From a virus: a stretch of 38,406 nucleotides of DNA. This document shows, one piece after another, positions 31,662 to 38,406 of the stretch. The position numbers and the translations under genes are program-made. Under the pieces are notes generated by a model. It was not told where the DNA came from. It ran no database searches and saw only the letters and a program-made list of their open reading frames with translations. Location of the stretch: positions 1 through 38,406 of the IMG/VR virus record IMGVR_UViG_3300024185_000019. One strand, written 5' to 3'. Position 1 is the stretch's first letter, and every line of letters begins with the position of its first letter.

Positions 31662-33104
31662 ATGTCAGGCTATACACGCCAATCCACTGCAGACATTGTA
31701 CCTACCGCTGTAGTACGCGCAGCGCCTATCAACGCAGAGTACAACAAACTACGTGATGCTTTTACACAAAGTGACACAGGTACTACAGGACACAAGCACG
31801 ATGGTTCATCTGATGAGGGTTCCTACGTACCTCTGATCGCTGACCTAGATGCTAAGAATAAGCTTATAGTAAGCCAAGCAGACAATCGCTTTGGTCTATT
31901 TGTAGAAGTATCTAACACCTCTACTGAACAACTACGCTTTCAAGACGGTCTTGTTGTACCCGTAGTAGATAACGATATTGACTTGGGTACATCTTTACTA
32001 GAGTACAAGAACCTGTACGTAGATGGTACAGCATTTATTGATACAGTTAGTATCGGTGATAATGACTATACCACTATTACAGATAATACTTACACTGTAT
32101 CTGCTGGTAACTTACTGTTTGATGTAGCTGGTAACATTAACTTAGATGCTGATGGTGGAAATGTAGCACTTAAGGATGGCGGCACTACTTATGCTACCTT
32201 GACAAGTAACTCAGGTAACCTTACACTTAAGAGTGGAACAACTACTGCTGTAACATTCACTGGTGCTAACGCTGACTTAGCTGGTACTCTGGATGTAACA
32301 GGTGCTGCTAAGTTTGACAATAACGCTACTATAGATGGCAACACTATCATTGGTGATGCTAACACTAAGACTGTAGCTGTCAATGCTAAGATTACTACAG
32401 CACTTATTCCTACAACTAATGGCGTTAATTCGGTGGGTAGTGCTTCTGCTTACTGGGGAGACAGCTTTCTAAAGAGCGTAACTACCACAGGCAATGTCAC
32501 TATTGGCGGTGACCTAACAGTTAACGGTGGTGCAGACTTTACTAATACTACACTGAATAACGTTACTGATCCTTCTAGCGCACAACAAGCCGCAACGAAG
32601 AATTATGTAGATACATCAATAGCTAACTTGATTGCGGGTGCTCCTGCTACACTAGATACGTTAGATGAGATTGCTGCAGCTATCAACGATGATAACAATG
32701 TTTATACTACTCTAACAAGCAGTATCGCAACTAAGTTACCTTTAGCTGGTGGAACCATGACTGGTGCCATTGCTATGGGTGGCAGCAAGATTACAGGTGC
32801 AGGTGCACCAACTACAGGTTCTGACCTCACTAATAAAACATATGTAGATGGCATTCTAGGTTCAGCAACCGCAGCAGCAGATAGTGCAGCAGATGCACAG
32901 AAGCTTGCTATTAACCCAGAAGACTCACAGTTCACACTTTCTGATAGTTCTACTACTGGCTTTTCTGCTTTGCATTACGCAGAGAAAGCAGAAGAGACTT
33001 ATACTAATCTATTAGCTCTAGCTAGTGTAGTTAGTGCTACTGTAGCTGATTATGGGTTTATCAACACTTCACCAACTTCAACGTCAGACTACGGAGCATT
33101 ATAA
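31662..33104 (+). CDS. Tail fibre protein (480 aa)
   Basis: 480 residues, Thr/Ala/Gly/Asn-rich and repetitive. N-terminal STADIVPTAVVRAAPINAEY, then HKHDGSSDEGSYVPLIADLD, is a likely virion-attachment region; the middle has beta-helix type strands (NINLDADGGNVALKDGGTTY, GNLTLKSGTTTAVTFTGANA); typical fibre signatures follow (LDVTGAAKF, ATKNYVDT, MTGAIAMGGSKITGAGAPTT). A C-terminal helical part has ALHYAEKAEETYTNLLALAS. It is the first of the receptor-binding cluster. The ribosome site is AGAGAGG. Confidence 0.87.
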   Translation: MSGYTRQSTADIVPTAVVRAAPINAEYNKLRDAFTQSDTGTTGHKHDGSSDEGSYVPLIADLDAKNKLIVSQADNRFGLFVEVSNTSTEQLRFQDGLVVPVVDNDIDLGTSLLEYKNLYVDGTAFIDTVSIGDNDYTTITDNTYTVSAGNLLFDVAGNINLDADGGNVALKDGGTTYATLTSNSGNLTLKSGTTTAVTFTGANADLAGTLDVTGAAKFDNNATIDGNTIIGDANTKTVAVNAKITTALIPTTNGVNSVGSASAYWGDSFLKSVTTTGNVTIGGDLTVNGGADFTNTTLNNVTDPSSAQQAATKNYVDTSIANLIAGAPATLDTLDEIAAAINDDNNVYTTLTSSIATKLPLAGGTMTGAIAMGGSKITGAGAPTTGSDLTNKTYVDGILGSATAAADSAADAQKLAINPEDSQFTLSDSSTTGFSALHYAEKAEETYTNLLALASVVSATVADYGFINTSPTSTSDYGAL

Positions 33105-33674
33105 ATGTCTACACAAATACAACGCCGTAGAGGCACAACATCAGATCATTCTACTTTTACAGGCGCTGGGGGTGAGATAACTGTTGATACAACAAAGAAT
33201 ACTATTGTTGTACACGATGGTTCTACACAGGGTGGCTTCCCTTTAGCTAAAGAATCAGCTGTAGCTTCCACAGTAGGTGGTTTAACAGATGTAACCATCA
33301 CTTCTGTAGGTGCAGGAGAGATACTTAAATACAGCGGCTCTGAGTGGGTAAACAACACTCTAGCAGAAGCAGGTATTGTAGCTACAGGTGACATTGGTGT
33401 TAGTGTACAGGCTTTTGATGCAGATACTGCTAAGCTTGATGCTACAACGGCTAACTTTACAGGTACACTACAAAACGGTGGTAGTAACGTAGTAGTTGAC
33501 ACAGACATAGGTTCTACTGTACAAGGTTATGATGCTAACTTACCAGCATGGCCTGCAAGTGTAAGTGCTACAGAAGTAGGTTATCTCAACGGTGTCACCT
33601 CTGGCATTCAATCTCAACTAGATGTAAAAGCATCAACAGGAAAAGCCATCGCTATGGCTATCGTATTCGGTTAA
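33105..33674 (+). CDS. Tail fibre protein with MTD-like N-terminus (189 aa)
   Basis: 189 residues. The N-terminal IQRRRGTTSDHSTFTGAGGE, then ITVDTTKNTIVVHDGSTQGG and FPLAKE, matches the short domain found at the start of phage major tropism determinants and many marine fibre proteins. Later segments (LTDVTITSVGAGEIL, SVSATEVGYLNGVTSGIQSQ) are fibre-like repeats. Begins immediately after the previous stop. A possible adaptor or short fibre. No reverse transcriptase or variable repeat was seen near it. Confidence 0.83.
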   Translation: MSTQIQRRRGTTSDHSTFTGAGGEITVDTTKNTIVVHDGSTQGGFPLAKESAVASTVGGLTDVTITSVGAGEILKYSGSEWVNNTLAEAGIVATGDIGVSVQAFDADTAKLDATTANFTGTLQNGGSNVVVDTDIGSTVQGYDANLPAWPASVSATEVGYLNGVTSGIQSQLDVKASTGKAIAMAIVFG

Positions 33675-33686
33675 AGGAGAAACTCA

Positions 33687-34061
33687 ATGACCGCACCAAA
33701 CATCGTAAATGTCAGCACAATCACTGGCAAAACAGATCAGATTGCATTATCTAGTACAGCTGCAACAGTACTGGTTTCTAATCCAGCTTCTTCTGGTAAA
33801 GTAGTTAAAGTAAACATGATTATAGTAGCAAACGTAGATGGGCTAAATGCCTGTGACGTTACTGTAGACTTGCATAGTGCAGCAGCAGGTGGCGGCACAG
33901 CCTTCTCTATTGTATCTACTGCATCTGTAGCTGCTGACTCTTCCCTTGTAGCACTAGACAAGAGTACCGCTATGTATTTAGAAGAGGATATGTCTCTCAC
34001 TGTCACTGCTGGCACAGCAAACGACTTGGAAGTAATTGTTTCATACGAAGAGATTAGCTAA
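33687..34061 (+). CDS. Beta-sandwich virion protein (124 aa)
   Basis: 124 residues: MTAPNIVNVSTITGKTDQIA, then VVKVNMIIVANVDGLNACDV, ending VALDKSTAMYLEEDMSLTVT then ANDLEVIVSYEEIS. The order of strands and the terminal SYEEI pattern match the protein at 19392-19754. Found among fibre genes, so it may decorate the tail or head. Ribosome site AAAGGAGAAAC. Confidence 0.75.
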   Translation: MTAPNIVNVSTITGKTDQIALSSTAATVLVSNPASSGKVVKVNMIIVANVDGLNACDVTVDLHSAAAGGGTAFSIVSTASVAADSSLVALDKSTAMYLEEDMSLTVTAGTANDLEVIVSYEEIS

Positions 34062-35482
34062 TGCGGTTCATTGGTAACGCCCCTGTAGATGGTGAAGTTC
34101 GTGCTATCGCCTCTGGTGCGTTAGCCACTGGAGATACTGTTGTCGTTAATAGCGATGGGACTGTGAGTGTTATTTCAGGTTCTAGCACCTCTGAGTCTGC
34201 TGGATCGGATACAGTCTTCACCTCTGGTATTACGCCAAATAGCACTGCGGCTGTATATGATACCAACTCCAATAAAGTTGTAGTTTTTGTAGCTACAACA
34301 GGCACTGGTTATGCTTACGTTGGAACAGTTAGCGGAACATCAATCAACTTCACCTCTGGTACAAACTTTGAGTCTGGATCGGCCACTTTTGTAAAAGCTG
34401 CTTATGATCCAGTATCAGGAAAAATTTTAGTGCTATGGCAAACGGCTTCTCTCTTTAGGGCAAGGATGGCTACGGTAAGTGGTAGCTCCATTTCATATGG
34501 CTCTATTGTGACAGTAGATGCTGATAAATTAGAAGAAAGTGCCATTGCTTATGACACTGTAAATCAAAAGTTTGTTATTGCGTACACTGATTGGACAAAC
34601 AATAATAGATACGGCACGGCTATAATAGGCACAGTCAGCGGTACAAGTATTAGTTTTGGCACCCCAGTAATCTTTAGATCAGCAAGAACAGACGCTACTT
34701 TTGCGTGTGTTTATGACGTATCTTCTGGTAAGACTGTTATTGCGTATAGTGAAGTAGCAGGATCAAATAACATAAATGCCATTGTGGGAACCATTAGCGG
34801 CACATCAATTAGCTTTGGAAGTGCGGTTACAGTTTCTACAACGGGATCATATACGACTGGTGTGTATGACTCCGCTTCTCAGAAAACTGTTATTTTTTAC
34901 AAGAATAGCACAGGCAGAGCCAGAGTCGGCACAGTATCTGGCACATCTATTAGCTTTGGTACAGAAGCTGTCTTTGGAACCAACCCCGCCTATATCAGCA
35001 CTGTGTACGATACAACGGCACAAAAAATTGTTGTCTCTTACAACGAGAATTTTGCCACTACCGAAATGCAATCTGCGAAAGTTTCAGGCACTGATATTAC
35101 TTTTGATAGCCCCCTAGAAGTTTCAAATAGTGTCTACACAGATGCTCTTTCTTCTGCGTATGACCCCGACACAGGTAAAGTAATCTTGACTTACAAAGAC
35201 AATGGCAACTCTAACAACGGCACTTACGTTGTTTACCAAGCGGGTTACACCTCCACCAACCTCACCTCTGAAAACTTCATAGGCTTTGCCAATAGCGGCT
35301 ACGCTGACGGTCAATCCGCAGCACTTAACTCGACCTGCTCCGTGGACAAGAACCAATCTGGTTTAACGGCTGGCGAGACTTACTATGTGCAGACTGACGG
35401 CACTTTGGGTACAACCCCTGCTGATCCGTCTGTATTGGCTGGTACAGCCATCTCTTCTAACTCTATCATCGTAAAAGGATAA
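34061..35482 (+). CDS. Fibre/adhesin with one seven-repeat block (473 aa)
   Basis: 473 residues in three parts. The N-terminal module (MRFIGNAPVDGEVRAIASGA, LATGDTVVVNSDGTVSV) and the C-terminal module (QSGLTAGETYYVQTDGTLGT, then SIIVKG) are shared with the 861-residue protein downstream. Between them, seven repeats of about 50 residues each read roughly F-E-S-x(8-12)-AYDS-xx-NKVVIAY...G-T-A-IVGTVSGTSISFG, the last stopping after GTYVVYQ. Four strands per unit and seven units suggest a beta-propeller, probably a receptor-binding head. The fold is inference. The start shares a base with the previous stop (TAATG). Confidence 0.85.
   Translation: MRFIGNAPVDGEVRAIASGALATGDTVVVNSDGTVSVISGSSTSESAGSDTVFTSGITPNSTAAVYDTNSNKVVVFVATTGTGYAYVGTVSGTSINFTSGTNFESGSATFVKAAYDPVSGKILVLWQTASLFRARMATVSGSSISYGSIVTVDADKLEESAIAYDTVNQKFVIAYTDWTNNNRYGTAIIGTVSGTSISFGTPVIFRSARTDATFACVYDVSSGKTVIAYSEVAGSNNINAIVGTISGTSISFGSAVTVSTTGSYTTGVYDSASQKTVIFYKNSTGRARVGTVSGTSISFGTEAVFGTNPAYISTVYDTTAQKIVVSYNENFATTEMQSAKVSGTDITFDSPLEVSNSVYTDALSSAYDPDTGKVILTYKDNGNSNNGTYVVYQAGYTSTNLTSENFIGFANSGYADGQSAALNSTCSVDKNQSGLTAGETYYVQTDGTLGTTPADPSVLAGTAISSNSIIVKG
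34202..35248 (+). repeat. Seven-unit protein repeat in first fibre
   Basis: Seven in-frame units of about 150 bases encoding AYD/VYD-xxxxK-(V/I)(V/I)-(A/F)Y and GTVSGTSISFG motifs. The GTVSGTSISFG-type segment follows units 1-6 but not unit 7. Confidence 0.85.
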
Positions 35483-35488
35483 ACTAAG

Positions 35489-35752
35489 ATGAAAACTATC
35501 GTTGAAACATCAAGCGGTCTGAGCAAGTATCTCCTTGCTGATGACGTGACAATCACAGCTACTGCTGATAACATTACTGTAGGTGATCCTGCACAGTTCA
35601 TCATTGGTGACTTGAACAGCACCACAGTGACCATCACCGACAACGTGACAAACGCCCCAGAAGACTGGTCTGGCAATAAGTACACGTTTGACGGCACTAC
35701 ATGGACACTGAACCCTAATTGGGTAGACCCAGAAGCAGAAGACGGGGAATAA
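35489..35752 (+). CDS. Small conserved fibre-locus protein (87 aa)
   Basis: 87 residues: MKTIVETSSGLSKYLLADDV, then NITVGDPAQFIIGDLNSTTV, NAPEDWSGNKYTFDGTTWTL and NPNWVDPEAEDGE. The pattern SKYLxADD...VGDPxxFIIGDxN...DWxGxKYxFDGTxWxLNP is common beside tail-fibre genes in cyanophages and other marine phages, so it may be a fibre chaperone or tip protein; the role is unproven. It sits between the two repeat-bearing fibre genes. Confidence 0.82.
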   Translation: MKTIVETSSGLSKYLLADDVTITATADNITVGDPAQFIIGDLNSTTVTITDNVTNAPEDWSGNKYTFDGTTWTLNPNWVDPEAEDGE

Positions 35753-35757
35753 TATAA

Positions 35758-38343
35758 ATGCGCATCATTGGTAACGCTGAAAAAGCGAGAGAAGTACAGG
35801 CCGTTGCCAGTGGTGTGTTGCCCAGTGGACAGCCTGTTGTGGTGAACAGCGATGGGACTGTGAGTGTTGCGGCTGAAACAAGCATTACTCAAGGGGTAGG
35901 AAGCAATACAACATTTGAGTCTGCTACTAGTAGTTGGAACGCTTCTGCTTACGACTCAAATGTAAAACGAATAGTTATAGCTTATAGTGACGAGGGTAAT
36001 TCTAGTGCTGGTACTGCTGTAGTTTGTGCAGTGGACGGTACAAGTCTTACCTTTGGAACACCTGTTGTATTCTCTTCTAATGAAGTAAACCATATTTCTG
36101 TCGCTTTTGATTCCTCAAACAATAAAATTGTTATTGCTTGGCACAACTATAATTCTGGTACAGACACAGATACAGGAAAAGCTATCGTTGGAACTGTAAA
36201 TAGTTCTAACAATTCTATATCATTTGGCTCTGCTACAACTTTTGAGTCTGGTAATTGCGATTCAACAGGTTGTGGGTTTGACTCTACTAATAATAAGATT
36301 GTTATAGCCTACAAAGATCATAACAATTCTAGCCGTGGAACAGCCATAGTTGGCACTGTAAGTGGCACAAGCATTAGCTTTGGTAGTGCAGTTGTTTTTG
36401 ACGCTACACCAACTACTCGTAATATAGTTATGTTTGATTCTTCTAATGATAAAATTGTTATTGCATATTCAGATCAAGCTGATGGAGATGATGGCTTTGC
36501 TATTGTTGGCACTGTATCAGGTACGTCTATTTCTTTTGGGTCTCGTACAAAGTTTGAAACAGGCGGTGTGTTTGGGAATTGGATGGGGGGCGCTTTTGAT
36601 TCAACAAACAATAAAATAGTTATTGCCTACGCCGATAATAATAATAGTGCATATGGAACAGGAATAGTAGGAACAGTAAGCGGAACATCTATTAGCTTTG
36701 GTACTCCTACTGTTTTTGAGTCGGCAAACTCAAATTACATCAATGTTGCTTACAACACTGCTGCTGGCAAAGTGATTATAGCCTATCAAGACAAAGGCAA
36801 TTCGGATACAGGGACGTATGTTGAAGGTACTGTCTCAGGCACATCTATTAGTTTTAACACACCAGCCACGTTCCCAAGTACGGCAGACGCTATTTATATA
36901 TCTGTTGCTTATGACTCAGATCAATATGCCTCTATCATTTCGTTTAGAAATACTGACAATTCTTCACATGGTACGGCTTTTTCATACCAAAGCACTGCAT
37001 CAGTCACCAACCTCACCTCAGAGAACTACATCGGCATGTCTGATGGGGTGGTTAATGTTGATAGCCAGACAGAAGATATAGGCTCTGCATCAATTTTTGA
37101 AAGTGCTGATGTTCAACACCTCAGCGCTGCTTTTGATAGCAATTCAAATAAAGTAGTTATTGTTTATAGAGACAATGCTAATTCATATTACGGGACTGCT
37201 GTCATAGGCACAGTGAATGGTACAAGTATTAGCTTTGGAAGTCCTGTTATTTTTAATAGCAGAAATGTTAACTATAATTCGGTAGTTTATGATAGCAATG
37301 CTCAAAGAATAGTTATTGCTTACACTGATACTGGCCCAGATATAGGCACTGCTATCGTCGGAAATGTAAGCGGTACATCCATTAGTTTTGGAACAAAAGC
37401 TGTTTATCAAAATTCAGCCAGTTACGATTCTTCTATTGTCTATGACCCTAATTCAAATAAAGTAGTTATTGCTTTTAAACATTATGCTAATGCAGAAAGG
37501 GGTAAGGCTGTTGTTGGTACGGTGGATGGCAGCGGTATTAGCTTTGGTTCAGTAACTACATTTGAAATGGGTCAAGCGCAACGTATTGTTTCTACCTTTG
37601 ACACTCATAATAATAAGGTAGTTATTGCTTACAGAACTAGCGCAGGTAAAGCTGTAGTTGGAACTGTATCGGGAACGAGTATTAGTTTCGGAACTGCTGT
37701 TACATTTAAGAATGAAGTTACAGAAGCTATCGGGCTTGCCTTTGACACCAGTAATAATAAGGTTGTGTTAGGTTATCTAAATGGAGCTGGTGATAAAGGC
37801 CATGCCGTGGTCGGGACTGTATCGGGAACCTCTATTAGCTTTGGTGCAGAGGCAACTTTTGAAAGTGGCGCTGCGTATGAAATTAAGCCTGTCTTTGACA
37901 GCAGTATTAATAAAACTATTATGGTTTATCAAGATGGTGGAAATTCTGATAATGGGACAGTTGCAGTGGGAACTGTAAGCGGCACTTCTATTAGCTTCGA
38001 AGATCCAACTGTTTTCGCTGCGGTAGACATTAAGCTATTAGCAACTGTTTTTGATAGTAGTAATAATAGAGTTGTTACTGCGTATAGAGACGGGGATAAT
38101 TCTAATTACGGTACATCTGTAGTCTTCCAGCCAGGCTACCAAGACATAGTCAGAGGCCAAGTCGCAGATGGTGTCAATGCTGAGATCAATATCAAGGGCG
38201 CTGTGGCTGAGAACCAAGTAGGCCTCACCGCAGGCCAAAGTTACTACGTCCAGACGGACGGCACACTGGGTACGACACCAGCAGACCCAAGTGTATTCGC
38301 TGGCACTGCTGTAGCTGCAACCAAACTTATCGTGAAGGGCTAA
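35758..38343 (+). CDS. Fibre/adhesin with two seven-repeat blocks (861 aa)
   Basis: 861 residues. The N-terminal module (MRIIGNAEKAREVQAVASGV, SGQPVVVNSDGTVSV) and C-terminal module (QVGLTAGQSYYVQTDGTLGT, TKLIVKG) match the 473-residue fibre. Between them lie two separate blocks of exactly seven repeats each (residues about 48-411 and 442-794), split by a linker containing TNLTSENYIGMSD, which is also found once near the end of the shorter fibre. Each unit has AFDSxxNKVVIAY and GTVSGTSISFG. The repeats use A/T-rich codons while the end modules are richer in C and G, suggesting separate origins. Probably a double beta-propeller receptor-binding protein (inferred). Confidence 0.87.
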   Translation: MRIIGNAEKAREVQAVASGVLPSGQPVVVNSDGTVSVAAETSITQGVGSNTTFESATSSWNASAYDSNVKRIVIAYSDEGNSSAGTAVVCAVDGTSLTFGTPVVFSSNEVNHISVAFDSSNNKIVIAWHNYNSGTDTDTGKAIVGTVNSSNNSISFGSATTFESGNCDSTGCGFDSTNNKIVIAYKDHNNSSRGTAIVGTVSGTSISFGSAVVFDATPTTRNIVMFDSSNDKIVIAYSDQADGDDGFAIVGTVSGTSISFGSRTKFETGGVFGNWMGGAFDSTNNKIVIAYADNNNSAYGTGIVGTVSGTSISFGTPTVFESANSNYINVAYNTAAGKVIIAYQDKGNSDTGTYVEGTVSGTSISFNTPATFPSTADAIYISVAYDSDQYASIISFRNTDNSSHGTAFSYQSTASVTNLTSENYIGMSDGVVNVDSQTEDIGSASIFESADVQHLSAAFDSNSNKVVIVYRDNANSYYGTAVIGTVNGTSISFGSPVIFNSRNVNYNSVVYDSNAQRIVIAYTDTGPDIGTAIVGNVSGTSISFGTKAVYQNSASYDSSIVYDPNSNKVVIAFKHYANAERGKAVVGTVDGSGISFGSVTTFEMGQAQRIVSTFDTHNNKVVIAYRTSAGKAVVGTVSGTSISFGTAVTFKNEVTEAIGLAFDTSNNKVVLGYLNGAGDKGHAVVGTVSGTSISFGAEATFESGAAYEIKPVFDSSINKTIMVYQDGGNSDNGTVAVGTVSGTSISFEDPTVFAAVDIKLLATVFDSSNNRVVTAYRDGDNSNYGTSVVFQPGYQDIVRGQVADGVNAEINIKGAVAENQVGLTAGQSYYVQTDGTLGTTPADPSVFAGTAVAATKLIVKG
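35899..38138 (+). repeat. Two seven-unit protein repeat blocks in second fibre
   Basis: Block 1 spans about 35899-36990 and block 2 about 37081-38138, each with seven units of about 156 bases. In both, unit 7 lacks the SISFG segment and ends GTAFSYQ or GTSVVFQ. Consensus unit: F-E-S...A(Y/F)DS..NK(I/V)VIAY.D..NS..GTAIVGTVSGTSISFG. Confidence 0.87.
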
Positions 38344-38346
38344 GAC

Positions 38347-38406
38347 ATGGCACTAGATACCATTCCGAAGCAAGAGGGCGGTAAGCTCAAGGCCGTTGCA
38401 TCTGGG
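38347..38406 (+). CDS. Third fibre paralogue, 5' end only
   Basis: An ATG three bases after the previous stop opens MALDTIPKQEGGKLKAVASG, running off the right edge after 20 codons. The KAVASG ending matches QAVASG and RAIASG at the same place in the two preceding fibres, so this is probably a third protein with the same N-terminal module. Confidence 0.65.
   Translation, partial: MALDTIPKQEGGKLKAVASG

Follow-up and report, generated by a model that had tools for sequence, protein, structure and literature searches.

The question raised by the locus studied here is whether the repeats of a pair of tandem fibre-type genes form exchangeable receptor-binding heads of constant architecture. The DNA analysed, referred to as the window, is a contig of 38,406 nucleotides (IMG/VR record IMGVR_UViG_3300024185_000019) from an uncultured, probably marine phage. 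Matches to PHROGs identify a terminase large subunit, a portal or head-tail adaptor, a major head protein, a tail protein and a tail fibre, which is followed by a small protein with an Mtd N-terminal domain, a 124-aa protein and the genes of interest: P1, an 87-aa ORF, P2 and the start of a third paralogue. An initial annotation of this DNA had described P1 and P2 as paralogues built from blocks of exactly seven repeats between identical ends, and had proposed seven-bladed β-propellers that are duplicated and swapped as whole receptor-binding heads, resulting in host-range evolution. The repeat observation is confirmed by our analysis, whereas the interpretation is only partly supported, because the predicted fold and the exchange of whole propellers found support, but their duplication within a gene did not.

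Repeat number and predicted fold

P1 and P2 are encoded by ORFs of 473 and 861 amino acids, respectively, and their features are compiled in Table 1, in which related loci in other viral contigs are denoted by L numbers. The units of P1 start at residues 66, 115, 164, 218, 269, 316 and 367, while those of P2 start at residues 65, 117, 174, 226, 280, 333 and 386 and, in a second block, at residues 459, 511, 562, 614, 662, 713 and 765, i.e., seven and seven plus seven units of approximately 52 residues. In each block, the last unit lacks the GTVSGTSISFG strand pair and a matching strand precedes the first unit, which is the strand-swapped (velcro) closure that is typical for a propeller. Two details of the initial annotation required correction: the ends are homologous but not identical, with 77% DNA identity between the N-terminal ends of P1 and P2 over 78 nt, and the A(Y/F)DSxxNKVVIAY motif is only a loose consensus.

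Table 1. Coordinates of the fibre, hub and predicted propeller features in the window
Position	Strand	Feature	Supporting observation
31662..33104	+	Tail fibre protein upstream of the propeller genes	Tail fibre PHROGs; 46% identity over 453 aligned positions to L103 residues 4-436
33105..33674		Small protein with Mtd N-terminal domain	Pfam E 5.6e-14
34061..35482	+	P1, single-propeller fibre-type protein	AlphaFold2 pLDDT 93.9, pTM 0.90
34061..34171	+	P1, N-terminal half of the split hub domain	90-94% DNA identity to same-slot relatives at 34036-34170; joined halves resemble Phage_cement_2
34154..34171	+	5' exchange border GATGGGACTGTGAGTGTT (DGTVSV)	5' breakpoint between window P1 and L138
34190..35245	+	P1, predicted seven-bladed propeller, closure strand included	Recurs in L138
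35255..35275	+	3' exchange border ACCAACCTCACCTCTGAAAAC (TNLTSEN)	3' breakpoint with L138
35255..35479	+	P1, C-terminal half of the split hub domain	75-96% DNA identity to same-slot relatives; strands at residues 406-471 in the model
35489..35752	+	87-aa ORF between P1 and P2, part of the conserved inter-propeller stretch; no family match	Lies in 35192-35869, 86-88% DNA identity to L050 and L094
35758..38343	+	P2, double-propeller fibre-type protein	AlphaFold2 pLDDT about 90 in both propellers; hub poorly modelled, pTM 0.50
35758..35868	+	P2, N-terminal part of hub	Direct repeat of the P1 end; 81-86% aa identity to same-slot relatives
35890..36993	+	P2, predicted propeller A (seven units), in the hub loop after the DGTVSV strand	Repeat count and structure prediction
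37006..37041	+	Hub strand TNLTSENYIGMS between the two propellers	Direct repeat of P1 35254-35284, 87%
37075..38136	+	P2, predicted propeller B (seven units), in the hub loop after the TSENYIG strand	Repeat count and structure prediction
38140..38340	+	P2, C-terminal part of hub	38179-38405 is 92% DNA identical to L050; 38236-38406 is 95% identical to L018 and L034
38347..38406	+	Start of third paralogue with related N-terminus (MALDTIPKQEGGKLKAVASG), cut by the contig end	Full copies in L050, L034 and several of L131-L155 carry one or two seven-unit blocks

For predicting the structure of P1, 62 family sequences were used, and each unit in the AlphaFold2 model forms a four-stranded blade. In a structural comparison with the PDB, the best matches were the seven-bladed Photorhabdus PLL/PHL lectins (PDB 6rgg, 5mxg) among many other propellers, with TM values of 0.73-0.79 on the target; the best match, PLL2, reached 0.79 over 352 alignment columns. 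P2 is predicted to contain two confident propellers, whose relative orientation is not defined by the model, and its PDB matches are tandem propellers such as 1nr0, which consists of two seven-bladed rings. The P2 prediction was based on only 21 sequences, and the hub model therefore rests on P1 alone. In contrast to the structural comparison, sequence and profile searches against the PDB revealed no lectin or other solved propeller at a meaningful E-value, and searches of PHROGs and Pfam with the whole proteins gave nothing useful for the repeats. Thus, the blocks are classified as propellers by predicted fold, and not as members of the lectin family.

The number of seven units is nearly universal in relatives and is not due to chance. 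A search of viral contigs with the GTVSGTSISFG pattern hit at least 120 stretches, and an iterated repeat profile detected 146 complete blocks of seven and eleven of fourteen (seven plus seven) units, with a spacing peak of 52 residues. Blocks scored as eight all contained a spurious N-terminal hit, and thirteen of the fifteen blocks scored as six were sevens with one divergent unit; lower counts of one to five, not each of which was resolved individually, come from fragments or from proteins with missed divergent units. When only the distance between end landmarks was measured, 115 of 116 blocks were 350-399 aa long, which corresponds to seven units, and one was 323 aa long. A second set, selected by the N-terminus of the third gene and not by the repeat motif, yielded 57 additional blocks of seven, and the few lower counts in this set belong to proteins of normal length. 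A 2353-aa protein on a contig labelled as Euryarchaeota MAG (L127, PBTA01000007.1) contains four blocks of seven units.

The occurrence of relatives with five, six or eight units had been named beforehand as evidence against the propeller, and this condition was partly fulfilled, because two six-unit blocks remain, in L006 and L036. L036 (3022-4726) is 99.5% identical to L060 (7313-9173) but lacks exactly 156 bp, i.e., one blade. A ring with one blade fewer or an assembly collapse of near-identical units explains these cases without rejecting the propeller.

The split hub and the exchange of propellers

The ends of these proteins appear to be two halves of one small domain. Joining the N- and C-terminal parts of the P2-slot protein of L050 resulted in a match to Pfam Phage_cement_2 (PF09956) that runs across the join and exceeds the curated threshold (26.5 bits against 24; E 8.6e-6). 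Fifteen of 28 joined hubs match at E<=0.1, while the hubs of P1 and P2 reach only 13.9 and 13.1 bits, respectively, and this signal became visible only after joining the two ends. This is likely a distant relationship, and the joined halves also align across the insertion point with Phage_cement and XM1 gp53-type proteins; these are capsid proteins, whereas the domain described here is split by propellers and lies among tail genes. A separate protein encoded upstream of the capsid gene in L018 was also tested as a possible stand-alone cement protein, but no match was found.

In 27 genes with two propellers, the second propeller occupies different hub loops: after the TSENYIG strand, as in the window, before the LTxGxxYYVQ strand, before the GKAVIVN strand, or within the turn before the DGTV-type strand. 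One hub thus offers at least four insertion loops. In L018 (10472-12689) and L034 (1680-3897), the P2-slot protein combines one seven-unit propeller with a different repeat family of the LFFRSDGAKMYVAGDAGNDINEYNLSTPW type in another hub loop, suggesting that unrelated heads can be plugged in as well.

Compared with relatives carrying the same gene order, the ends of P1 and P2 are mostly about 75-96% identical in DNA, while the P1 propeller shows only 37-58% identity. Across 15-22 genomes per slot, the median identity is 84-95% for the N-terminal ends and 71-90% for the C-terminal ends, but 41% for the propellers, which is close to the 43.3% (SD 7.0) of random propeller pairs. The strongest evidence for exchange concerns the window itself: the P1 propeller is 98.9% identical over 1045 nt to the first propeller of the third-slot double protein in another virus, L138, and identity falls to 68% and 55% in the flanks. 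The borders lie at GATGGGACTGTGAGTGTT and at ACCAACCTCACCTC (35255 onward). Because the contigs are metagenomic, single mosaics could be chimeras, although the two copies of the window propeller differ by about 1%, mostly by synonymous changes, and both joins are in frame. Further mosaics are L068/L074 with 95% and L022/L097 with 93% identity, in which 120-nt flanks are at 52-68%, and each of them links a single-propeller gene with a double-propeller gene. The two propellers of one gene also assort independently, as seen in L140 and L147, where the first propellers are 96% and the second propellers 36% alike.

At third codon positions, the two border motifs are as similar between slots as within slots (0.74 against 0.73 and 0.79 against 0.79), while motifs farther out are slot-specific (0.57 between against 0.88 within; 0.30 against 0.68; 0.28 against 0.56). 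This is the pattern expected if crossovers fall at the borders. In contrast to exchange, duplication is not supported: the two propellers of one gene show on average 44.7% identity (n=27) and are no more alike than random ones. Double forms therefore seem to be assembled from the pool.

Possible location, function and alternative explanations

The explanation that we consider likely is that P1, P2 and the third gene encode tail-fibre-tip proteins in which the hub, a small β-domain made of the N- and C-terminal ends together, carries one or two seven-bladed propellers in its loops. In this view, the propellers are the adhesive heads, whose variable loops lie on one face and probably bind surface glycans or other receptors of the host bacterium. 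Homologous recombination between the short border sequences would replace one whole propeller by an unrelated one from a shared pool, within a slot, between slots or between viruses, while the ends that attach to the virion stay the same. Of this view, the repeat number, the predicted fold, the mosaicism and the borders are demonstrated by our analysis; the location at the fibre tip, receptor binding, a consequence for host range and the involvement of ordinary homologous recombination are inferred. The location is inferred from the position of the genes behind the tail and fibre genes in the late tail gene cluster, from L103, where a homologue of the window's tail fibre is fused to a hub-propeller module, and from the long fibre-like N-terminal regions of many other members. 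The putative binding face is inferred from 1038 units, in which the loops between strands B-C and D-A, located on one face of a propeller, are most variable, while the C-D turn is nearly fixed; loops are, however, variable in many proteins without being binding sites. A more far-reaching reading, which is possible but tentative, is a natural combinatorial display system, in which a cement-fold hub with at least four accepting loops and a pool of propellers dealt among paralogous slots and viruses through conserved border DNA would give each genome several independently changing heads.

An unlikely but possible alternative is that the proteins decorate the capsid, with the hub seated on the head and the propellers used as surface adhesins, comparable to T4 Hoc, that help the particle to stick to glycans instead of being the tail receptor-binding protein. 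The cement-like hub would fit to this role, and decoration proteins that bind host or mucus carbohydrates are known (PMC7602432). On the other hand, the gene order, the L103 fusion and the fibre-like N-terminal regions favor the tail, and the window's own hubs stay below the Pfam threshold. It is also unlikely that the proteins are enzymes of the sialidase or glycan lyase type that degrade capsule. Although sialidases and the glycoside hydrolase BT3686 are among the fold matches, such matches are general to propellers, the most conserved repeat positions are the structural C-D turn, and no conserved polar cluster was seen in the variable loops when overall conservation, rather than individual active-site residues, was inspected.

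Even less likely is that no exchange occurs and that each slot's propeller simply diverges very fast under selection, with the conserved ends reflecting constraint. Same-slot propellers are indeed about as different as any two propellers, but over 90% of same-slot pairs are below 55% identity and most of the rest are at or above 95%; in addition, near-identical propellers occur in different slots with unrelated flanks and the borders lack a slot signal. This alternative would regain weight if all mosaic pairs were assembly chimeras. As judged from the sequence variation alone, diversification by a diversity-generating retroelement or by blade-by-blade shuffling appears similarly improbable. 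Some propellers contain nearly identical blades (up to 90%), and the comparison of L036 and L060 indicates that single blades can be lost or collapsed. However, blades within a propeller are only slightly more alike (0.495) than blades of different propellers (0.46), and the differences between the two copies of the window propeller are not adenine-directed.

Related systems

Propeller heads on phages and tail-like particles and the replacement of fibre tips have been described separately, but in the open-access papers that could be searched, no description of this split-hub family or of whole-propeller exchange between fixed borders was found. The Photorhabdus lectins provide the closest solved fold, but are free lectins that are not inserted in a virion hub. 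The receptor-binding protein of Staphylococcus phage phi11 is a host-recognition device that contains a β-propeller (PMC4901313). Its propeller is of another kind, with five blades, and is not known to be exchanged as a cassette; no sequence relation to the window proteins was seen. Tail fibres of eCIS carry propeller lectins as modular heads on conserved anchors (PMC12923769), but use different anchor domains (eBAP3, collagen shafts), and no split hub or multi-loop insertion was encountered in the parts consulted. In general tail-fibre mosaicism, C-terminal receptor domains are replaced while N-terminal anchors persist (PMC10386132); here, an internal domain is exchanged between two fixed borders, at several loops and between paralogous slots.

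The same architecture is present in a cultured phage, Lentibacter phage ICBM2, whose protein gp49 (A0A3G2YRE6) is annotated only as hypothetical. It comprises 515 aa, with seven units by eye, one propeller only and the same hub motifs, and it was found as a structural match (E 6e-22); its sequence identity to P2 is 27.5%. The Cobavirus study describes the ICBM2 fibre region as variable and its host range as narrow, without analysing this protein in the parts consulted (PMC6775973).

More than two hundred related blocks allow the exchange unit and its borders to be mapped closely, which is rare for phage receptor-binding parts. If the propellers bind receptors, tracking them in metagenomes would make the pace and source of host-range change in uncultured phages directly measurable. 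The hub with its several insertion loops is also a natural example of how a virion can present one, two or more interchangeable heads.

The fibre-type genes just upstream of the propeller genes, i.e., the Mtd-domain gene of the window and its counterparts in L018 (7698-8382) and L084 (6253-7543), end in the same peptide STGKAIAMAIVFG although the rest differs, and this shared C-terminal tail may be a docking peptide. In L095, one long protein (reverse strand, 1413 aa, open at one end) carries several hub-propeller modules in a row, which are joined by short fibre-type linkers (NQVLSWNGSDYAWAD).
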